Positions 13 through 8,193 of a stretch of DNA of 8,193 nucleotides are shown here, one piece after another. Origin of the DNA: Gammaproteobacteria bacterium (lineage in GTDB: Bacteria > Pseudomonadota > Gammaproteobacteria > Acidithiobacillales > Acidithiobacillaceae). The stretch is from positions 1-8,193 of the forward strand of contig JAMCRJ010000030.1 in assembly GCA_023381645.1 (NCBI GenBank). Direction: 5' to 3'. The notes beneath the pieces were generated by a model. It was not told the origin of the DNA. It did not search any database and saw only the letters and a program-made list of their open reading frames with translations. Numbering within the stretch: position 1 is the first letter of the stretch; each line of letters begins with the position of its first letter. The position numbers and the translations under genes are program-made.

Positions 13-1632
13 CTACGGCATTGCCACGCTCCCATCACTGCGGGGATCAGCGGCACCGGCAAATCCACCCTCCAGGTCACGCGCGACCATGCCCGCATGA
101 CCCATGAAATCACTGTAACCCGGAACCCATGACACTTGATGCCCCCAGCGCTGCAAATCCTCAAAAACAGTCCGGGAATAGCGCTGCTCCAGACGCAAAC
201 CGGCCGAGATCTCTCCCCAGGTCCTCCCATACAGCCAGCGCGGACTGGCTACTGACTCGGCGAGGGAAAGCCCATAGTGCTTGACGCGCATGAGCAGTGC
301 CGCCTGGGTTTGGGGCTGGCCATCTCCCCCCATACTGCCGTAGGCGAGTTGCACCCGCCCCTGCTCGGCATAGAGCGCTGGATTAAGGGTATGAAAGGGG
401 CGTTTCCCCGGCACCAACACATTGACGTGTCCCGGCTCCAGAGAAAAGGCGCAGCCGCGATTATTCCACAACACCCCAGTATTGCCCGCCACCACGCCAG
501 TGCCGAACTCGTGGTAGAGACTCTGAATCACACTCACCATCCGCCCTTGCCCATCCACCACCCCGAACCAGACCGTATCGCCTTTGGCGGGTCCAATGGG
601 TGGCAGTGGCATCGCGATAAGGGGATGTATCTCTCTGGCGCAGTCATCCAGGAAATCCGGATTCAGCAATGACGCAATGTCCACATCGCAAAAGTCGGGA
701 TCAGCGATGAGCTGGTCCCGGTACTTGAAGGCCAGTTTGGTGATTTCTACCGTGTTATGAATCAGTTCCGAGCCCAGATGGTCCCCGCCGTTGAGTCCAA
801 CGCGATTGAGCAGGGCGAGGATCATGAGCGAGGCTACCCCCTGGGTGGGCGGCGGCATATTGATGGCTTCGCCGACGCCGAAGGCGGTGCGCACCGGCTC
901 CACCCAGCGGGGCTCGAAGGCCTGCAAATCGGCTTCTGTCAGCAGACTGCCAGCGGCTTTGAGACCCTTCGCCATTTGCCAGGCGAGCGGACCGTGATAA
1001 AAAGCCTCTGCACCATTCTCCGCCAGAGTCCCGAGCGTTTGTGCCAGCGCCCGTTGACTCCACAGTCGCCCGGTTGGCATTATCTCTCCCCCCGGCATGT
1101 AATGCGCTGCGAAACCCGGCTGCTGACGGAGTGCGTCACCAAATCTCGTGAGGGTATGGCTCTGGTTAGGGCTGAGCGGAAAACCGGTGGCGGCGTGGCA
1201 ATAAGCGCTCTCCAGCAAATCGGACCAGGACTTACGGCCCCGCCAGCGATCCCTGGAGAACCCAAATGCTGCTCCCCAGCCGCCCACCGCACCAGGCACT
1301 GTCAAAGCGGATAAGCCGCCACGGAACGGAATCTCGCGTAGCCCACGATCATGAAACAGTGCTGCCGAATAGCGTCGTCCTGATGGACCAGCAGCGGCCA
1401 GTCCGCGCACCGTGTGCGCATCGCCGTCCGAGATCAGCCAGAACCCGTCGCCCCCCAGCCCGTTCATGTGGGGATAGACCACAGAGAGGGTCGATGCCAC
1501 CGCGATACCCGCCTCTATGGCATTACCACCGCTGCGCAAAATAGCGGCCCCGGCCTCGGCCGCCAGGGCGTGCGGAGCACTCACGGCACCCCTCTCCGAA
1601 CTCGCCGACAAGGAGATCTGACCGGGTTTCAC
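13..1632 (-). CDS. Cytoplasmic gamma-glutamyltransferase-family Ntn-hydrolase, HpxW (oxamate amidohydrolase)-like
   Basis: A self-processing N-terminal-nucleophile amidohydrolase of 539 residues. The probable cleavage and nucleophile residue is T353 in KGDTVWFGVVDGQG, giving an alpha chain of about 352 and a beta chain of about 187 residues. Other family marks are GGNAIEAGIAVA (36-47), VVYPHMNGLGGDGFW (51-65), LNPAL, and YGSMGGDGQPQTQ near the substrate site. No signal peptide is visible, unlike periplasmic glutathione-degrading enzymes. The nearest characterised relative by context is Klebsiella HpxW, which hydrolyses oxamate to oxalate and ammonia and is encoded with hpxXYZ. Here it probably takes the last amide from the opened ring. 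GTG 1632 is preferred: it overlaps the preceding stop (GTGA) and has GAGGT seven bases away. ATG 1668 and GTG 1713 are alternatives inside the upstream gene. The gene ends in TAG at 13-15. Confidence 0.85.
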   Translation of the reverse strand: MKPGQISLSASSERGAVSAPHALAAEAGAAILRSGGNAIEAGIAVASTLSVVYPHMNGLGGDGFWLISDGDAHTVRGLAAAGPSGRRYSAALFHDRGLREIPFRGGLSALTVPGAVGGWGAAFGFSRDRWRGRKSWSDLLESAYCHAATGFPLSPNQSHTLTRFGDALRQQPGFAAHYMPGGEIMPTGRLWSQRALAQTLGTLAENGAEAFYHGPLAWQMAKGLKAAGSLLTEADLQAFEPRWVEPVRTAFGVGEAINMPPPTQGVASLMILALLNRVGLNGGDHLGSELIHNTVEITKLAFKYRDQLIADPDFCDVDIASLLNPDFLDDCAREIHPLIAMPLPPIGPAKGDTVWFGVVDGQGRMVSVIQSLYHEFGTGVVAGNTGVLWNNRGCAFSLEPGHVNVLVPGKRPFHTLNPALYAEQGRVQLAYGSMGGDGQPQTQAALLMRVKHYGLSLAESVASPRWLYGRTWGEISAGLRLEQRYSRTVFEDLQRWGHQVSWVPGYSDFMGHAGMVARDLEGGFAGAADPRSDGSVAMP

Positions 1633-2237
1633 AGAATGGACCTCAGTTTGCGACGCGCTGAACACCATTCCTGGCGGGTATTCAGCCGGGAATAACGCAA
1701 ATAGTGATTCCACGGCAAGCGAATATGCTCTACCGCCGACAAATAACCCAGTTGTCGATCTAGCCTTGCATCAGCTGCACCCAAAGGTACTGCGCAGAGT
1801 GATGGTAGCCAACTCTGCGATACCATCAGCGGATGCCCGCCGCTACCCCAGCGATCTATCGGACTTACCGCCGCAACATTCCGAGCGTGTGCAAGGCGCC
1901 GCAGCCGCCTGAGCCATAGCACGGGCGGCAAAGTCGTATCTACCTGCACCACCAACGCAGGGCCAGATAGATTATGCAACCCTACCTGAAGCGTCGAGAA
2001 AGGCCCACGCCTTGCCCGAAAGTTATGCCGTTTCATGGCACGACGATGCAGGCAAGCCAAAATCCGCCGTGGCCGATACCCTGTCACCAGATACACTGGC
2101 GCGAACCCCGCCTGCCGCAGGATATCCACCTGCCGGTCAATCCAGTTCCGGCCATCACCGGGCACACGCCTGCACGCTTTGTGCTGTCGCCCCGAGCGCC
2201 GGGACCGGCCACCCGCCAGAATGATGGCTGCATCCAT
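1629..2237 (-). CDS. MobA/MocA-like nucleotidyltransferase, probable molybdenum cofactor nucleotide transferase
   Basis: A 202-residue GT-A-fold nucleotidyltransferase. Family marks are the N-terminal nucleotide loop IILAGGRSRRSGRQHK (5-20), DRQVDILRQAGFAPVYLVTG (34-53), the metal-binding Asp in LVVQVDTTLP (D100), the GSGGHPLMVS stretch (131-140), and a closing LNTRQEW. MocA-type relatives attach CMP to molybdopterin for xanthine-dehydrogenase-family enzymes, and genes of this type commonly sit with them, so it probably finishes the cofactor for the hydroxylase encoded upstream. It is odd in being extremely arginine-rich (33 Arg against about 10 Asp+Glu), and the usual Met after the SRR of the loop is Ser. 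ATG 2237 follows the hpxZ-like stop by 8 bases without a recognisable ribosome site. Its TGA overlaps the next start as GTGA. MobA (GMP) activity or another nucleotidyltransferase role is possible. Confidence 0.78.
   Translation of the reverse strand: MDAAIILAGGRSRRSGRQHKACRRVPGDGRNWIDRQVDILRQAGFAPVYLVTGYRPRRILACLHRRAMKRHNFRARRGPFSTLQVGLHNLSGPALVVQVDTTLPPVLWLRRLRRLAHARNVAAVSPIDRWGSGGHPLMVSQSWLPSLCAVPLGAADARLDRQLGYLSAVEHIRLPWNHYLRYSRLNTRQEWCSARRKLRSIL
1640..1644 (-). promoter_or_regulatory. Ribosome binding site that decides the GTG start of the HpxW-like gene
   Basis: Minus-strand GAGGT is seven bases before GTG 1632, which itself overlaps the upstream TGA as GTGA. The two alternative starts further upstream (ATG 1668, GTG 1713) have no ribosome site at a suitable distance. 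Confidence 0.6.
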
Positions 2238-2245
2238 GCTACAGC

Positions 2246-2632
2246 CTAAGTTGCCGTCGGCATCAGGCTCACATGCGCCGCGACGATACGCCAACCCTCT
2301 GGCGTGCGTATCCAGGTCTGACTTTGTCGGCCATGCACCTGTTCGCGCCGGAACTCCGTGTTGGCAGTCGCAAAACTCTGTCCATAGGTGGTGATCGTCG
2401 TATTGACCAACTCCCGATTCAGCGCAGGGGCTGGACGGGATGCCCGAAACTCGGCAATGGCCGCATAGCCGTAGAGATTTTCTGCCACTCCGTAGCGCAG
2501 CGTGTGTACACTATTCCAAAATAATTCGTCCAATACATGAACATCGTTTTCCACCAATGCTTTTTCATAACGAAAAAAAGCTGCCTGCATTTCTTGTAAG
2601 ACTTCGGGCGCATTGATTTCGGTGTGAACCAT
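2246..2632 (-). CDS. hpxZ: AtzH/HpxZ family protein (DUF3225, SnoaL/NTF2-like fold), probable decarboxylating amidohydrolase
   Basis: A small (128-residue) cone-shaped NTF2-like protein matching DUF3225 from end to end: [83 protein letters not shown]. AtzH of Pseudomonas sp. ADP converts 1,3-dicarboxyurea to allophanate, a decarboxylating step directly after AtzE; Klebsiella HpxZ sits beside HpxY. As I recall, the AtzH catalytic residues are Tyr22 and Arg46, and both positions are Tyr and Arg here. The natural role would be to decarboxylate the N-carboxy product of the preceding amidase. The ATG at 2632 is supported by AAGAGGA overlapping the amidase TAA, 13 bases downstream of the amidase gene; the frame stays open to 2734 only as a shadow of the amidase. 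Family is firm, substrate inferred. Confidence 0.9.
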
Positions 2633-2640
2633 GGGATTTT

Positions 2641-2647
2641 TCCTCTT
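2641..2647 (-). promoter_or_regulatory. Ribosome binding site of the hpxZ/atzH-like gene, overlapping the amidase stop
   Basis: Minus-strand AAGAGGA overlaps the TAA of the amidase gene (TAAGAGGA) and lies eight bases ahead of the ATG at 2632. It rules out the longer open frame that begins at 2734 within the amidase gene. Confidence 0.75.
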
Positions 2648-4043
2648 AGCGAGCGGGGATTGGACTGGTAAATCCGTGCAACTCAAGCTCTCTTGCGACT
2701 TTAAATATTCGCGCCTCCTGCCAGGGTGCAGCAATAATCTGGACCCCGATAGGCATCGCCCCTGCGCTGGCTACGGGCACCACCACCACCGGGAGGCCAA
2801 TGAAGGAGAGGGGTTGGGTGTACAAACCCAAATGCGGTCGCACCATCATTTGCTCCCCGTCCAGTTCCATATATCGCTGCCCGATGGCGGGCGCCGACAT
2901 GGGCGTGGCCGGTGCCAGCAACAGGTCATAGCGCGCGAAAACCTTGAGTACTTCCGCCCGATACCAGCGCCGGAAACGCTGCGCCTGGATATTCCAGGAC
3001 GCGGGCAATAGCGTACCGGCCAGCATGCGATCCCGCACGTCCGGGTCATAGTCGGCGGCGTGATGACGCAAACGATCCAGATGCAGATTGCTGCTTTCGG
3101 CATTGGTGATGAGATAGGCGGCGGCACGCGCCTGCGCCGTGCCGGGAATTTCGACGAGATCCGTCACATTCAGCGCCGCCGCGACCCGCGCCAGTGCCTG
3201 CTCCGCTGCTGACGTCGCCTGTTGCATGAAATAGCCGGCGGCAATGGCGATTTTCAGGCCGGCGACACCGTCTGCCAGACTTCCACTGACCGGCTCAGTC
3301 GCCCTATCCGCACAAACGGGGTCCGCAGCATCCGCCCCTTGCATGGCATCATAGGCGAGAGCGAGATCCGCCACGCTACGTGCCAGCGGGCCGACATGAT
3401 CGAGGCTGGGACAGAAAGGAAAGGCTCCAGCCCGGGACAAGCGGCCATACGTCGGCTTCAGTCCAAAAATACCGCAGAGGGAAGACGGCACCCGAATAGA
3501 ACCATTGGTGTCAGAACCCAGGGCGATGGGCACCATGCCTGCCGCTACGGCGGCACCACTGCCGCCACTGGACCCGCCTGTCATCCGCAAACGGTCATGG
3601 GGATTGCGGGAAGGCCCATAGTGAATGTTTTCACCCGTAAAATCGTAGGCATACTCGCCCATATTGAGAGCGCCCACCAGGACGGCGCCCGCTGCCGTGA
3701 GCCGCCTTACGGCGGTGGCGTCCGCCACGGCGGGGACATCTTTTCGATTGATCTTGGACCCGGCGAGGGTAATCTCGCCCTGCAAATCGAAAAGATTTTT
3801 GACCGCAAAGGGCACCCCCGCCAGAGGCCCGGGGTCTTCGCCCCGCGCCACCTTCTGGTCCACTGCCTCCGCTTCCCGTAGGGCACGCGCTTCCGTGACG
3901 CAGGTGAAGGCATTGATCTCGCCGTTCCTGGCGTGGATATGCCGGAGCGTATCCTGCACCACCTCCGCTGCGCGCCACTCGCCGCTACGGACCCGCTGCG
4001 CAATTTCCTGCGCCTGCGGAAATGCGTCGTTCTCTGGCTTCAT
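2646..4043 (-). CDS. atzE: AtzE/HpxY-type amidase (amidase signature family)
   Basis: Cytoplasmic amidohydrolase of 465 residues. The Ser-cisSer-Lys triad of the amidase signature family is complete: K82 in [10 protein letters not shown]158 in [15 protein letters not shown], and nucleophile S182 in [16 protein letters not shown]. Stretches such as [31 protein letters not shown] and [15 protein letters not shown] are typical of the AtzE subfamily rather than GatA. AtzE, with AtzG, removes the terminal amide nitrogen of 1-carboxybiuret; HpxY is its counterpart in Klebsiella purine breakdown. Here it probably deaminates the N-acylurea made by ring opening (inference). ATG 4043 is chosen for the ATGA overlap with the hpxX-like gene and the usual N terminus; the frame continues up to 4151, inside hpxX. 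There is no clear ribosome site, so translation is probably coupled. The TAA lies inside the ribosome site of the next gene. Confidence 0.92.
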
Positions 4044-4240
4044 GGGCGGAATACCGGGGCCAAATCTTCCGTCATATCCAGCGGGTGCGCTTCCAGCATC
4101 TTGGCCATCCGCGTACTCAGCATGAAATAATACTTCACGTCCGCACGCCATTCTTCGCGTACAGTGAGCCCAAAAGAATCGAAGAGATAGTTCATATACG
4201 TATCCACGGGCGTTTCAGCATCTGTTCCGGGCGGATTCAT
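4040..4240 (-). CDS. hpxX: DUF4089 small subunit, HpxX/AtzG-like partner of the AtzE-type amidase
   Basis: A 66-residue, GatC-like helical protein. In the cyanurate pathway of Pseudomonas sp. ADP the equivalent AtzG forms a complex with AtzE and is needed for a soluble, active amidase; in Klebsiella the matching gene is hpxX. Seen here: a variable N terminus (about 1-12), a helical body with VDTYMNYLFDSFGLTVREEW and MLSTRMAKMLEAHPLD, and the conserved tail LAPVFRP. The ATG at 4240 is preceded by AAGGAAAA at a good distance. Its TGA overlaps the ATG of the amidase gene by four bases (ATGA), consistent with coupled synthesis of two subunits of one complex. The position directly in front of an AtzE-type amidase is the strongest argument for the assignment; the protein is too short for sequence alone to be decisive. 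Confidence 0.85.
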   Translation of the reverse strand: MNPPGTDAETPVDTYMNYLFDSFGLTVREEWRADVKYYFMLSTRMAKMLEAHPLDMTEDLAPVFRP

Positions 4241-4245
4241 TCTGC

Positions 4246-4253
4246 TTTTCCTT
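4246..4253 (-). promoter_or_regulatory. Ribosome binding site of the hpxX/atzG-like gene
   Basis: Minus-strand AAGGAAAA lies in the 16-base gap after the xdhC stop, at the normal distance from the ATG at 4240. It supports translation of this 66-codon gene as a real product. Ribosomes loading here would also serve the amidase gene, which has no ribosome site of its own and overlaps by ATGA. Confidence 0.72.
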
Positions 4254-4256
4254 ATA

Positions 4257-5198
4257 TTAACAATCAGTTTTTTTGCGCCGTAATTGCAGCAATTCTGCCA
4301 ACACGCTGATCGCGATTTCGGGGGGCTTTTTACCTAGTCCTGGCAAACCCATGGGCATGTGCAAATAGTCCGGAATATCATGTCCGGCGCGGGACAGAGC
4401 GTGACTGAAACGCGCCGCTTTGGACCGGCTGGCAATTACTCCGAGATAAGCCAATGGTTCCCCGATAAAATGCTCCAGCAACGCGTAATCCATGGCGTGG
4501 CTGTAGGTCATGATGAGCACCATGGCATCGGTTGCCGGGGCCTGCAGATCGGCCCAGGTCCAAGTGTCCACAAGGGTAACTTCCGGCGGAAAGGCGGCAG
4601 GATCGGCCCATTCGGGGCGCTGATCGAATACGGACGACGCGAAATCCAATTTGTGGGCCATGCTGGCGATCGCCCGCCCTACATGCCCCGCTCCAAAAAT
4701 CCATAGCGGCTGATGATGGGGGGCGGGCAGCGCGAAGTGCCGCTCCTCGACATCCATACCCGGAGCGTTGGCGCGCAGAAGCACAGTCAAGGCATCAAAG
4801 GAACCGATTTCCCGTCCCAGACGGGTCATCCCGGCCACGAGCTGCAACCGGCCTGCTGAATCCCTTTGATAGAGACGAGAGGCGCCAGACTGGTACAGCT
4901 CGGAAAAAAATAGGGGCACATCCAACACACAGATTTCCACCTGCCCACCGCAGCACTGATCATCCGCCGTACCCAGGGTAAAACTCAGTAATGCCGGAGG
5001 TGCTTCAGAACGGGGAGAGCGCAACACCTGACAAACCTGATATTCCATACGGCCACCGCCTACCGTGCCCAACAGGGAGCCGTCTTCCAAGAGACACATG
5101 CTGGCCCCGACCGCCGTGGGCGCAGACCCCCGCACCCTGGTCACGACGGCTTCCCGGACCGGAAGCAAGGGCCGCTGACGACTGGCGATGGCATTCAT
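4257..5198 (-). CDS. xdhC: XdhC-type molybdenum cofactor insertion/sulfuration chaperone
   Basis: Characterised XdhC proteins bind molybdenum cofactor, protect it, help its sulfuration and hand it to the xanthine dehydrogenase large subunit; the protein does not form part of the mature enzyme. The 313 residues show the N-terminal XdhC/CoxI domain (REAVVTRVRGSAPTAVGASM at about 15-34, LLGTVGGGRMEYQV at 42-55, QCCGGQVEI at 81-89). A C-terminal Rossmann-like domain follows: LWIFGAGHVGRAIASMAHKL at 165-184, YSHAMDYALL at 232-241, YLGVIASRSKAARF at 251-264, GKKPPEIAISVLAELL at 289-304. The ATG at 5198 overlaps the ring-opening enzyme's stop (ATGA) and places the domain at the usual distance from the N terminus; the frame is open to 5357, but that part shadows the upstream gene. 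Its presence implies the hydroxylase carries a sulfido-type xanthine-oxidase cofactor. It ends 16 bases before the next gene. Confidence 0.93.
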   Translation of the reverse strand: MNAIASRQRPLLPVREAVVTRVRGSAPTAVGASMCLLEDGSLLGTVGGGRMEYQVCQVLRSPRSEAPPALLSFTLGTADDQCCGGQVEICVLDVPLFFSELYQSGASRLYQRDSAGRLQLVAGMTRLGREIGSFDALTVLLRANAPGMDVEERHFALPAPHHQPLWIFGAGHVGRAIASMAHKLDFASSVFDQRPEWADPAAFPPEVTLVDTWTWADLQAPATDAMVLIMTYSHAMDYALLEHFIGEPLAYLGVIASRSKAARFSHALSRAGHDIPDYLHMPMGLPGLGKKPPEIAISVLAELLQLRRKKTDC

Positions 5199-6286
5199 GA
5201 TGCGTACCCGATCACGGCCACCGGCCCGCCCCCCTGGGGACCCTGATGCTCCGCGCGCGTCGAGACATAAACGCCGGTTTCCCCGGTGATTCCAGCCAAC
5301 AAGGCTGAGACTACACAGCGGGAATAGCGCATATCGGAGATATCCGCGTCCGTCCACATGGTATGACGACGATGACGGATATGGCCCCGCGGGTCGGCAT
5401 CGGATTTGGCGAAGACCGCCAGCACCTTCTCCGTATCGACATCTGCCAACTGCCCGTTGACGGGCTGCAGTCCCAGCTGATTCAGCACGGCATGAATCGC
5501 CGGCACATCGATGATGTCCTGCATCACCCCATGGGCGATGACCAGATCACCTTCCCACCAGCACGAATTGGCGAAGAGCACCATTTCGGAGCGCTGCAAT
5601 AAGGGTTTGGCGGAAACGCTGGCCCGACTGGAGTACAAGGACCAATCCTGGTTGATGACGTCATCCGACAGTTCGGATTCGGTAACCTCACCCAGAGCGA
5701 GGGCCACCCCCAAGGCAGAAGCGCCGCGCGACCAGGCCATGTCACAGCGCAGGTGCTCGTCACGGACATTTCCGGTCGTTGTAGAGTCCGGCGCTGGAAT
5801 CGCCCCTTTGATCTGCACCAGATGCACATCCGCAGGCTCGACCTGCAAGGTATGCATGAGCCGGGTCACCGCGCGGGCGGTCTCCCGCACCATCGCCATC
5901 CGCCCCACTTCCTGCGCGCTGAAAGGGCGGGTATGGGCGGATGCAAGCGCCAGACGTTTTATCGGATAGGCTTGCTCCGCCGCCCGGCCTGATACCGCAA
6001 ACACCAGAATATGCGGCGCCGCAACCCCTTCACTACCTCCCGAAAAGGACAACACCACGCGTTCTTCCACCAACTCTGGACGGCAATCCAGATGCGTTGC
6101 CAGCACTTGGCTCACAGCCATCATCGCCAAAGTCCGGGTAAAGTCGTTCATGCCGCCGTTACCCTCGGTTTTGCCAATAATCGCGACGATGCTCTGGGGA
6201 TTTATCACCCCCTCGGCAATCGCCCGGACCAGTCCGGAAACGTCGGCAGGGTCTGTCGTAAAAAACCGGTAGACGGAGGTACGCAT
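5195..6286 (-). CDS. Ring-opening amidohydrolase, cyanuric acid amidohydrolase/barbiturase family
   Basis: Hydrolyses a cyclic amide in a cyanurate- or barbiturate-like ring. The 363 residues match the three-repeat 'Toblerone' fold family along the whole length. Each repeat supplies a Lys/Ser pair: K39 in GKTEGNGGMNDFTR with S82 in FSGGSEGVAAPH; K160 in VQIKGAIP with a Ser in the SSRASVSAK stretch (219-227); K294 in VFAKSDADP with S342 in VSTRAEHQGP. The glycine-rich end GPQGGGPVAVI, with E346, is the family's structural metal site. Other signatures are WSRGASALGVALALGE and LVIAHGVM. Start ATG 6286 has an AGAGGG ribosome site at 6295-6300. Known members either open cyanuric acid to 1-carboxybiuret (AtzD/TrzD) or barbituric acid to ureidomalonate. 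Motifs alone do not separate these; the adjoining molybdenum hydroxylase favours barbiturate or a related oxidised ring. The stop overlaps the XdhC start by ATGA. Confidence 0.92.
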   Translation of the reverse strand: MRTSVYRFFTTDPADVSGLVRAIAEGVINPQSIVAIIGKTEGNGGMNDFTRTLAMMAVSQVLATHLDCRPELVEERVVLSFSGGSEGVAAPHILVFAVSGRAAEQAYPIKRLALASAHTRPFSAQEVGRMAMVRETARAVTRLMHTLQVEPADVHLVQIKGAIPAPDSTTTGNVRDEHLRCDMAWSRGASALGVALALGEVTESELSDDVINQDWSLYSSRASVSAKPLLQRSEMVLFANSCWWEGDLVIAHGVMQDIIDVPAIHAVLNQLGLQPVNGQLADVDTEKVLAVFAKSDADPRGHIRHRRHTMWTDADISDMRYSRCVVSALLAGITGETGVYVSTRAEHQGPQGGGPVAVIGYAS

Positions 6287-6304
6287 GGTCTTCGCCCTCT
6301 GCGA

Positions 6305-6889
6305 TTAAAAGGGAACCCGGAGCACCCGCCCGGTGCGACGTTGGATGTCGATCTTGTACACGTCCCCATCGTCCATCTCATCTGCTGCCTGAGCGTTCGC
6401 CAAAGCAGTGACCACCTCGTCAGAATTCATGGTCATCACCGTCACCGGATCGCCAATGGACATGGGAAAATCGTGCCAGGTACCCGCATGAATCATCACC
6501 CCCTGCCCCGCTGGAATGCGAAAAGCGCGGACGTCCTCCAGACGGGGGACATTTTCCCCGCTGCCCTGATTGGGTTTACCCAGCACCATGGCGAAGGGAA
6601 TGCTGCCCAGCCCGACAAAAATCTGCGTCATATTGAGGTGCCGTTCCAGCCAGGTAATCTCGGGGTTACGGTGCGATATCCGGGCCGTGCGGACCACCGC
6701 GCGACCGGTATATTCAAAATCGAGATTTTGCCCCTCTTCCACAGTCCCCTTATAAAAGGGAATCGAAAGTCCCGGCCGGTGTACCGCCTCGCCAATCATC
6801 ACGCCGTATTCCGCGAGGTTCTCCGGGGTAGCATCCAGCAATGGGACATCTACATAAACCGCCTCTGTCTGCTTTGCATAGGTATCCAT
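6305..6889 (-). CDS. Ureidoglycolate lyase-like protein (AllA/ureidoglycolate hydrolase family)
   Basis: A 194-residue protein that resembles the ureidoglycolate lyase family, whose characterised members split ureidoglycolate to glyoxylate and urea. The family-like stretches are ITWLERHLNMTQIFVGLGS (about 78-96), PFAMVLGKP (98-106), VRAFRIPAGQGVMIHAGTWH (120-139) and DFPM (140-143). E82, H84, H134 and H139 are candidate active-site or metal-facing residues. It is longer than E. coli AllA (about 160 residues), with extra sequence around 40-75 and an acidic tail (ADEMDDGD). It starts at an ATG three bases after the FAD-subunit stop, with a near-perfect AGGAGGA ribosome site. Its place between the hydroxylase and the ring-opening enzyme suggests action on a ureido-containing or ring intermediate; this is inference. 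It may not use ureidoglycolate itself, because no allantoinase or allantoate amidohydrolase is nearby. Confidence 0.8.
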   Translation of the reverse strand: MDTYAKQTEAVYVDVPLLDATPENLAEYGVMIGEAVHRPGLSIPFYKGTVEEGQNLDFEYTGRAVVRTARISHRNPEITWLERHLNMTQIFVGLGSIPFAMVLGKPNQGSGENVPRLEDVRAFRIPAGQGVMIHAGTWHDFPMSIGDPVTVMTMNSDEVVTALANAQAADEMDDGDVYKIDIQRRTGRVLRVPF

Positions 6890-6892
6890 ATT

Positions 6893-7759
6893 CTAATCCT
6901 CCTTTTTCGATTCACCACATCCATGTATGGCGTCCAGCACCAGCCGGGAAGCTATCTCCAAACGATATGCCGCCGTTGAGCGGATATCCTGAATGGGTGC
7001 AATATCCTGCCCTACCCTCTGACGCACCTGCGCGTCGGTGATATCACGCAACGCACGTCCCAGCAGATATTGGCTCACGGTTGGCAAGGTGCAGGGAGTC
7101 GCCGCTACACTCGCCACGCCGAAACGCGCACTCTGAATAATTCCCCCCCTATCTTCTTCGATGAGCGCCGCGATACTCACCTTGGCAATAGCCTGCGCTG
7201 CCCGTGTTCCGACTTTCCGAAAATAGCCATGGCTGCGTTTGGGGGGGTAAGGAATCCAGAACGCGCTGAGCAACTCTCCAGCTCGCAAGGCCGTCTTACG
7301 ATACCCCTGATGGAAATCTCCATAAGGCAACCAACGCGAACCATGATGATGGGCGATCTCTAGAAGTGCGCCATAAGCCAGCAGCACCGGCGCGTTGTCC
7401 GCCGCAGGTGATGCATTGCAAACGTTGCCACCCAGCGTGGCGCGGTTTTGAATGGGCGGCGCCCCGGTCACCGCCGCCGAGGCTGCCAGCATCGGCCAGT
7501 GGGCGACCACTTCCGCATGCCGGCGAATCACTTCCAGGGAAGTAGCCGCGCCAATCCGGATACCCTCTTCCGTAATCTGCAGCCCCTGCAACTCCTGCAG
7601 TCCGCTGATGTCCAGCCAGGACTCCGGGCGCCGTTCCGGGGCGAGATGACTCTCCACCATAAGATCGGTCCCACCCGAAATCACCCAATATGGGCGGGGG
7701 GCTGCCGCCAATATCTCCAGGGCTTCCGGCAAATGTCGCGGCCTTATCCACTCAGACAT
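6893..7759 (-). CDS. FAD-binding subunit of the molybdenum hydroxylase (CoxM/XdhB type)
   Basis: Middle subunit that passes electrons from the [2Fe-2S] protein to its FAD and on to the final acceptor. It has 288 residues, normal for a stand-alone FAD subunit. The first FAD pyrophosphate loop is ISGGTDLM at about residues 27-34, and the second is ATLGGNVCNASPAAD at about 107-121. The C-terminal CO-dehydrogenase-flavoprotein domain follows, with FRKVGTRAAQAIAKV near 180-194 and DIRSTAAYR near 258-266. The ATG at 7759 is chosen because it overlaps the previous stop (TGATG) and has a GGAGGGGG ribosome site at 7766-7773; the open frame extends to a codon at 7930, but that part merely shadows the [2Fe-2S] gene. 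It is not the 4-hydroxybenzoyl-CoA reductase type, since no iron-sulfur insert is apparent. Assignment to the family is firm, but the substrate is unknown. Confidence 0.94.
   Translation of the reverse strand: MSEWIRPRHLPEALEILAAAPRPYWVISGGTDLMVESHLAPERRPESWLDISGLQELQGLQITEEGIRIGAATSLEVIRRHAEVVAHWPMLAASAAVTGAPPIQNRATLGGNVCNASPAADNAPVLLAYGALLEIAHHHGSRWLPYGDFHQGYRKTALRAGELLSAFWIPYPPKRSHGYFRKVGTRAAQAIAKVSIAALIEEDRGGIIQSARFGVASVAATPCTLPTVSQYLLGRALRDITDAQVRQRVGQDIAPIQDIRSTAAYRLEIASRLVLDAIHGCGESKKED
6897..6903 (-). promoter_or_regulatory. Strong ribosome binding site of the ureidoglycolate lyase-like gene
   Basis: Read on the minus strand the bases are AGGAGGA, seven bases before the ATG at 6889 and just ahead of the TAG stop of the FAD subunit gene. 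It is the best Shine-Dalgarno match in the window and fixes the start of this gene. It suggests higher or independent translation of this reading frame compared with the coupled ones. Confidence 0.8.
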
Positions 7760-8193
7760 CAGCAGCCCCCTCCGGCGGCCTGGACGATGGCTGCATAAAT
7801 GCGCCCATACCCGGTACAGCGACAGAGATTGCCGCTCAGGCCCCAGCGAATCTCCTCCAGGGTCGGGGTCGCATGCTCCGCCAACAGGGCGGTCGCCGCG
7901 AGCATCATACCCGGCGTACAAATCCCGCATTGGGTGGCGCCGCAGTGAACAAAGGCCCGTGCCAGGGCACTATCTTCGGGAAGGCCCTCCACCGTGGTAA
8001 TCTCTGCCTGCTCCATCTGCCCGAGAGGAACCAGACAGCTATTCACCAGCTTGCCATTCACCAGTACCGCGCAGGCACCACACTCTCCTTCGCCGCAGCC
8101 TTCTTTGGCCCCCTTGAGGTCGCATTCATTACGCAATACATCCAGTAAACGGGCGTTCGGCGCTGAGCTGCTCTGAAATACCTTACCGTTGAT
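7759..8193 (-). CDS. [2Fe-2S]-binding subunit of a molybdenum hydroxylase (xanthine dehydrogenase family), 5' end cut by window edge
   Basis: Electron-transfer subunit that would carry electrons from the molybdenum site to FAD in a three-subunit cytoplasmic hydroxylase. The visible 144 residues begin in frame at the window edge (INGKVFQ) and show both family clusters: the plant-ferredoxin-type motif CGEGECGAC with a following Cys in LVNSC, and the helical C-terminal cluster built from TQCGICTPGM plus NLCRCTGY. The family is usually about 150-170 residues, so probably only a few to about 20 N-terminal residues are missing. A TTG codon at 8136 lies in the middle of the ferredoxin fold and is not the start. 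The TGA stop shares one base with the ATG of the FAD subunit gene. The family is certain; the substrate (xanthine, a pyrimidine or another azaheterocycle) is set by the large subunit, which is not seen here. Confidence 0.95.
   Translation of the reverse strand: MNGKVFQSSSAPNARLLDVLRNECDLKGAKEGCGEGECGACAVLVNGKLVNSCLVPLGQMEQAEITTVEGLPEDSALARAFVHCGATQCGICTPGMMLAATALLAEHATPTLEEIRWGLSGNLCRCTGYGRIYAAIVQAAGGGC

Follow-up and report, generated by a model that had tools for sequence, protein, structure and literature searches.

The window analysed here, a stretch of 8,193 nucleotides on contig JAMCRJ010000030.1, very probably holds the downstream part of an operon for obtaining nitrogen from purines. 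This assignment draws on sequence comparison, as does our further proposal, which on balance we favour, that two neighbouring products of the operon, a cupin resembling ureidoglycolate lyase and a ring-opening amidohydrolase of the Toblerone fold, would together give a route of urate breakdown that is independent of uricase. All ten genes (region 13..8193) lie on the minus strand and are contiguous, with a spacing between the window's open reading frames that ranges from overlaps, several of them of 1-4 bases, to at most 18 bases. Their order, 5' to 3', is the iron-sulphur (Fe-S) subunit of a molybdenum hydroxylase (cut by the window end), its flavin adenine dinucleotide (FAD) subunit, the cupin, the ring-opener, XdhC, AtzG, AtzE, HpxZ, a MobA-like protein and an HpxW-like protein. 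The initial annotation of this DNA had described ten consecutive co-directional genes no more than 18 bases apart and had read them as one compact operon joining a molybdenum hydroxylase and maturation proteins to a ring-opener and an acylurea-dismantling tail, and both descriptions agree with our results.

By sequence the window belongs to the acidophilic genus Acidithiobacillus. A protein listed under the name Acidithiobacillus sp. 'AMD consortium' shares 96% identity with the ring-opener, and positions 841-8193 (7,353 bases) are 99.4% identical at the DNA level to genome G020, in which the Fe-S subunit gene is complete. In G020 the Fe-S gene is preceded by at least six more named genes that point the same way, in the order TonB protein, PF02133 permease, guanine-deaminase-like protein, adenosine-type deaminase, PF06516 protein (NUP) and molybdenum large subunit. 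The families of these upstream genes (purine/cytosine permease, deaminases and the purine-nucleoside protein NUP) were named from a related locus, L004, where the adenosine deaminase scores 479.9 bits against a cut-off of 419.

A survey of 29 Acidithiobacillaceae genomes found the operon's ring-opener in 14, counting one locus per genome. Permease, guanine-deaminase-like protein, adenosine-type deaminase and NUP accompany it in 13 of the 14 (the exception is G003; the permease of G014 is truncated by a contig end), as do the hydroxylase subunits (exception G033) and also AtzE, HpxZ and the HpxW-like protein (the G014 contig ends before them). XdhC and the MobA-like protein are present in 12, the exceptions being G014 and G033. 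The gene order is kept among these relatives, so that the arrangement is more than chance, and a plasmid copy in A. caldus has the same order from the large subunit onward. On this plasmid (L001) an ISL3-type transposase (12244-13458) is found between the FAD subunit and the cupin, and in G016 (L109) the matches to the HpxW-like gene and to the permease are split into several fragments, which would fit broken genes or an assembly error. A large subunit, a transporter and a regulator had been expected upstream of the window; the first two are indeed there in relatives, while a LysR gene is found at the downstream end of the operon, in 10 of the 14 genomes and on the A. caldus plasmid.

The window does not include the large subunit; 12 large subunits from the loci were aligned to R. 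capsulatus xanthine dehydrogenase (XDH). Residues aligned with E232, R310, F344 and F459, which we take to have purine-binding roles, are kept in six of them (L001, L003-L006 and L015), and these six come from the closest operons. They are not kept in the divergent Bacillota proteins of L009 and L010, which stand beside a Group IV ring-opener and cupin, nor in the unrelated L028, L056, L068 and L082. We read the operon as one for purines because of its deaminases, its nucleoside protein and the xanthine-dehydrogenase-type residues of its large subunit.

The ring-opener (5195..6286, minus strand; PF09663, E-value 2.7e-128) has a predicted fold with a mean predicted local distance difference test score (pLDDT) of 87.0 and a template modelling (TM) score of 0.90 to TrzD in Foldseek, and contains the three Ser-Lys pairs of its family, K39/S82, K160/S225 and K294/S342. 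In the accessible part of Peat et al. (2013, PMC3758960), Group IV of this family is described from Acidithiobacillus and Sulfobacillus without a substrate and is recognised by Arg195, Met/Thr321, Arg325, Thr345 and Arg346 in AtzD numbering. With Arg, Met, Arg, Thr and Arg at these positions, the window protein matches the Group IV set. A 2017 follow-up reportedly could not assay the class, whose proteins did not express. In a quick tree, for which rows over 480 residues were trimmed to the domain, a branch with a Shimodaira-Hasegawa-like approximate likelihood ratio (SH-aLRT) support of 100 separates the 32 Group IV rows from the rest.

Two characterised signatures exist in this family, and by sequence the ring-opener carries neither of them. 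The barbiturase set (Group VI), given as Asn195, His321, Lys325, Val345 and Ser/Ala346 in AtzD numbering (PMC3758960), is matched at none of the five positions. The cyanuric acid hydrolase motif, S-G-G-X-E-X-Q-G-P-X-G-G-G-P in PMC9118981, reads S-T-R-A-E-H-Q-G-P-Q-G-G-G-P in the window, where Thr-Arg in Ser342-Thr343-Arg344 (5255..5263, minus strand) replaces Gly-Gly of the cyanuric acid hydrolases and Val-Ser/Ala of barbiturase. Both arginines of the cyanuric family, numbered 194 and 324 in the enzyme of strain ADP (PMC9118981), are present as R187 and R323. For a wider comparison we used the best 80 of at least 570 confirmed relatives from a genome scan together with two plasmid loci; among the proteins of these 82 loci the cyanuric motif is found in 59, and in none of the 15 that belong to Group IV. 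All 120 listed database relatives, of 7,376, have Thr-Arg at 343-344 and none has the cyanuric motif. A second ring-opener in G003 (L101, G003:C46), 39% identical, lies outside the operon with the Gly-Gly signature and has no cupin beside it. The Foldseek match 5hy0 is titled 'orotic acid hydrolase', which hints at further substrates for the fold.

It is extremely unlikely that the window forms part of a cyanuric acid operon in which the ring-opener would be a cyanuric acid hydrolase feeding an atzDGEH-like tail. The protein does pass the cyanuric acid amidohydrolase model NF052395 (389.2 vs 360 bits), although this model does not separate Group IV; its nearest solved relatives are cyanuric acid hydrolases, and the order atzG-atzE-atzH is that of strain ADP, where a Toblerone ring-opener is likewise found upstream of these three genes in atzDGEHF of Pseudomonas sp. 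ADP. Here, however, the ring-opener has the Group IV signature with S-T-R in the diagnostic motif, no atzF was identified, and a molybdenum hydroxylase is present with purine genes in front. Furthermore, the surroundings of the A. caldus copy contain no annotated allophanate hydrolase, and a second amidase of this type was not matched in the family operons. We rejected the cyanurate route on the motif, the purine genes and the lack of a matched allophanate hydrolase. Since Group IV passes the automatic amidohydrolase model despite the missing Gly-Gly, automatic names are doubtful for this class; some Group IV proteins are named cyanuric acid amidohydrolase in databases.

The initial annotation had pointed to a route from uracil through barbiturate to ureidomalonate, which we consider very unlikely. 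In this oxidative pyrimidine pathway the hydroxylase would make barbiturate from uracil or thymine, barbiturase would open the ring, and the tail would take ureidomalonate, itself an acylurea that would suit it, to malonate. The known pathway (uracil, barbiturase, ureidomalonase) resembles the present genes in that a ring is oxidised and then opened by a Toblerone enzyme to an acylurea; the ring-opener family includes barbiturase, and the permease family also carries pyrimidines. But the barbiturase signature is missing throughout, the large subunit has xanthine-dehydrogenase residues, the upstream deaminases and nucleoside protein point to purines, and the cupin would be left without a role. 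On signature, large-subunit residues and purine genes this route was rejected. The earlier interpretation therefore stands for the operon and its acylurea tail, while its input has to be redirected from pyrimidines to purines.

In the loci compared, the Group IV ring-opener always comes with the cupin (in the window 6305..6889, minus strand; PF04115, E-value 1.8e-12). A cupin gene lies directly upstream on the same strand in all 15 Group IV loci and in none of the 67 others, four of which hold less than 700 bases upstream, too short for a whole cupin gene. Fisher's test gives p = 1e-16, a value not to be taken at face value as it treats related genomes as independent; the 15 loci include such genomes and are not fifteen independent events. 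Within the family the cupin adjoins the operon's ring-opener in 14 of 14 genomes, and the pair occurs across Acidithiobacillaceae, other Proteobacteria, Bacillota, Myxococcota, Acidobacteriota and Melainabacteria. The accessible account of Group IV (PMC3758960) shares with our protein the five specificity residues and the genus and offers neither substrate nor gene context, whereas our loci add several further phyla and a constant cupin partner.

For the predicted fold of the cupin (mean pLDDT 83.4) the top PDB matches are five AllA-family chains (E-values 4.5e-10 to 2.0e-8; 19-22% identity). Its residues E82, H84, Q89 and W138-H139, invariant in 16 aligned rows, follow the AllA-type pattern E/H/Q...WH and look like a metal site, in which they may act as ligands. 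AllA is described in PMC3793230 as a nickel-dependent cupin and urea-releasing lyase. Compared with AllA/DAL3 ureidoglycolate lyase (PMC3793230), the window cupin shares the fold and the E/H/Q...WH residues, but differs in its low identity, in its scores below all equivalog cut-offs and in its neighbours.

The second half of the argument comes from the tail of the operon, which consists of an AtzG/HpxX-like small subunit of 66 amino acids (4040..4240; PF13318, 37.5 vs 24 bits), an AtzE/HpxY-like amidase (2646..4043; NF006631, 710.8 vs 461 bits), an HpxZ/AtzH-like protein (2246..2632; NF033625, 196.1 vs 135 bits) and, beyond the MobA-like gene, an HpxW-like N-terminal-nucleophile amidohydrolase of the gamma-glutamyltransferase fold (13..1632, or to 1713; PF01019, E-value 3.6e-125), all on the minus strand. 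The nearest solved chain to AtzE is 6c62 (9.1e-148). The HpxW-like protein matches both chains of 5hft (224 + 212 bits), presumably Klebsiella pneumoniae HpxW, although the best single-chain match is 2nlz (241 bits); in the 566-residue reading, its Thr380 falls opposite the start of chain B of 5hft, at that chain's first residue. HpxZ matches AtzH (6bjt) and has nine of nine AtzH pocket residues including Tyr22 and Arg46, seven at the same number and Gln106 and Gln108 shifted by a three-residue gap. According to PMC6219798, AtzH probably decarboxylates the product of AtzE/AtzG, and it depends on Tyr22 and to a lesser degree on Arg46. Since HpxZ keeps the whole pocket, the tail by analogy would take an acylurea, and the series R-CO-NH-CO-NH2 to R-CO-NH-COOH to R-CO-NH2 to R-COOH fits its enzymes. 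If the tail takes an acylurea, the substrate of the ring-opener should be a diacylurea ring such as a barbiturate and not xanthine or urate themselves. Opening of urate or xanthine directly at C6, which we also considered, would give an alkenyl urea and not the acylurea needed by the tail.

In Klebsiella the hpx tail takes oxalurate through oxamate to oxalate. One could therefore imagine that urate is converted to parabanate, or another five-membered ring, by an unrecognised oxidation, that Group IV opens this ring to oxalurate, and that HpxXYZ and the HpxW-like protein finish the route. The likeness of the tail to hpxWXYZ, the HpxZ equivalog score and the match to both 5hft chains speak for it. 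We nevertheless think it unlikely, because known urate oxidases were not recognised in the family genomes searched and all substrates known for the ring-opener family have six-membered rings. The hpxWXYZ genes of Klebsiella and other Enterobacteriaceae combine, as here, an AtzG/E/HpxZ-like trio with a gamma-glutamyltransferase-fold gene; here, though, the trio shares its operon with a xanthine dehydrogenase, a cupin and a Group IV ring-opener, and none of the identified genes encodes an allantoate enzyme. According to PMC6219798 the commonest arrangement is ggt-atzG-atzE-atzH, with the Enterobacteriaceae copies near an allantoate amidohydrolase.

Neither uricase nor 5-hydroxyisourate (HIU) hydrolase was found in any of the 29 Acidithiobacillaceae genomes, in searches whose controls were detected, and on this result we rejected the classical uricase-allantoin route, for which no allantoinase or allantoicase search was made. 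Among 14 Group IV genomes searched, 2-oxo-4-hydroxy-4-carboxy-5-ureidoimidazoline (OHCU) decarboxylase and the PF06181 urate oxidase are in none of the four family genomes and in one genome overall (G013). The search for HpxO gave nothing over the cut-off in 14 genomes, with weak matches everywhere (family best E 9e-10), and no control passed either. Urease alpha and an over-cut-off urea carboxylase are both absent from nine of the 14 ring-opener genomes, some of them incomplete drafts, which favours a route that does not depend on urea.

We assign the step from urate to an acylurea to the cupin and the ring-opener because no other gene of the operon remains for it, and the urate ring would yield an acylurea only after conversion to a diacylurea ring. 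In this proposal purines would be converted to xanthine and then urate by the deaminases and the xanthine-dehydrogenase-type hydroxylase, and the pair would stand in for uricase, for 5-hydroxyisourate hydrolase and for the enzymes that act on allantoin. How the pair might do so is more tentative. One possible version, which we put forward with reserve, is a hydrolytic route through 5-ureidobarbiturate (pseudourate) that uses neither oxygen nor peroxide and makes Group IV enzymes hydrolases of 5-substituted barbiturates. The cupin would add water and cleave the C4-N9 bond of urate, a carbon-ureido bond of the type that AllA breaks, with no redox change, leaving a barbiturate ring substituted at C5 (urate + H2O to 5-ureidobarbiturate). 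The Ser-Lys ring-opener would then hydrolyse this barbiturate-type ring to an acylurea R-CO-NH-CO-NH2, from which the tail would strip ammonia (AtzG/E), CO2 (HpxZ) and again ammonia (HpxW-like protein) to end at ureidomalonate. The whole route would run without oxygen, peroxide or obligatory urea, and its computed atom balances close. Each enzyme would cleave a bond of the type known for its family, and the route would explain why, at AtzD position 345, Group IV has Thr where barbiturase has Val, an exchange compatible with a polar C5 substituent.

A rather unlikely variant, included in the overall probability that we give to the uricase-independent pair, would release urea: urate and two molecules of water would give dialurate and urea, or a urate diol would give alloxan and urea, and the ring-opener would act on dialurate or alloxan. 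This is closest to the chemistry of AllA, which releases urea, and the dialurate atom balance closes; but with urease and urea carboxylase missing from nine of 14 genomes (some drafts) half of the ring nitrogen would be lost, and the alloxan version requires an oxidant that was not found. We also considered the cupin as a metal-dependent urate oxygenase. The 'one complete route' of the initial annotation was too strong a wording, as the step from urate to acylurea rests on two enzymes without a known substrate in the literature found; our search, with subscription papers mostly outside it, found no paper on this operon or on a Group IV substrate.

Several observations weigh against a purine operon or against urate as the substrate of the pair. 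The guanine deaminase of L004, at 312.9 bits, stays under its equivalog cut-off of 351, and the purine genes are absent beside the operon in G003 and on the A. caldus plasmid. The cupin is far below all ureidoglycolate lyase equivalog cut-offs (best 37.9 vs 260 bits), and the last gene clears the ordinary gamma-glutamyltransferase model TIGR00066 by a narrow margin (358.9 vs 357.85 bits). Genome G033 keeps pair and tail without a hydroxylase gene in the operon (the genome elsewhere was not searched for XDH). Locus L015 has hydroxylase, pair and HpxW-like gene and no AtzG/E/HpxZ in 19 kb. In G013 (L055) a single contig holds the pair together with an HIU hydrolase, an OHCU decarboxylase and a urate-oxidase domain, and an unrecognised urate oxidase elsewhere in the genomes is possible. 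The pair stands without other operon genes in seven of 15 loci (L007, L008, L011-L014, L055), two of them shorter than 6 kb, and in L008 (9423-11092) it lies beside housekeeping-type genes, a class II tRNA-synthetase and a PrmC-like methyltransferase. Given such pair-only loci and the differing neighbours, the substrate of the pair may be broader than, or different from, urate.

The neighbours of the pair vary as follows. In L011-L014, from Melainabacteria, Acidobacteriota and a deltaproteobacterium, the gene after the pair belongs to one blastp cluster; in L011 it combines an alpha/beta-hydrolase and a thiamine-pyrophosphate (TPP) enzyme in one frame, and L013 holds only its start. In the Bacillota loci L009 (10984-13143) and L010 (10914-13265) a fumarylacetoacetate-hydrolase-family protein, named in L009, and a different amidase replace AtzG/E/HpxZ, with a divergent molybdenum hydroxylase upstream of the pair. 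An amidohydrolase also follows the pair there, and the L009 copy passes a 5'-deoxyadenosine deaminase model.

The operon of G033 (L108, about 2737-17445 in ring-opener orientation) is informative about the parts of the system. It is complete except for the three subunits of the hydroxylase, XdhC and the MobA-like gene; the absences fall at three separate places and the remaining genes are tightly packed. From the NUP stop to the cupin start there are 3 bases on the longest readings, or about 75 if the cupin has the length found in the window, the ring-opener overlaps AtzG, and HpxZ is 75 bases from the last gene. Loss of five molybdenum-related genes is the simpler account, because L015, outside Acidithiobacillaceae, has the hydroxylase, XdhC and MobA-like genes likewise placed, the hydroxylase genes before the cupin and the other two after the ring-opener. 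Their joint absence suggests that XdhC and the MobA-like protein work for the hydroxylase, and that the cupin, the ring-opener and the tail make up a separable unit.

The remaining genes of the window are likewise on the minus strand. The [2Fe-2S] small subunit (7759..8193, its 5' end beyond the window) is over the cut-offs of PF01799 and PF00111, and the FAD-binding middle subunit (6893..7759) over those of PF00941 and PF03450, with XdhB NF043083 as its top NCBIfam model, under the cut-off. The XdhC-family maturation protein of the molybdenum hydroxylase (4257..5198) passes PF13478 and PF02625, and the MobA/MocA-like nucleotidyltransferase (1629..2237; PF12804, 76.1 vs 27 bits) probably serves the molybdenum cofactor. 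All ten products pass a Pfam cut-off. Four products pass NCBIfam models: HpxZ and AtzE, the ring-opener under the name cyanuric acid amidohydrolase, and the last gene under that of gamma-glutamyltransferase; the XdhC, FAD, Fe-S, MobA-like and ureidoglycolate-lyase matches do not reach their equivalog cut-offs, and the profile search of the window proteins gave no NCBIfam match for AtzG. The HpxW-like gene most likely starts at GTG 1632, which overlaps the MobA-like stop by 4 bases, rather than at GTG 1713, the longest reading, which overlaps it by 85. Promoter and terminator scans of the window gave 4 and 5 hits, against 3.5 and 7.2 in shuffles, within one standard deviation.

For Group IV, the operon points to a few candidate substrates and to a partner enzyme that is always present. 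If the pseudourate route is true, a class of the Toblerone family without an assigned substrate would gain one; if the proposed role of the pair is right, bacteria would be able to degrade urate without uricase and without hydrogen peroxide.

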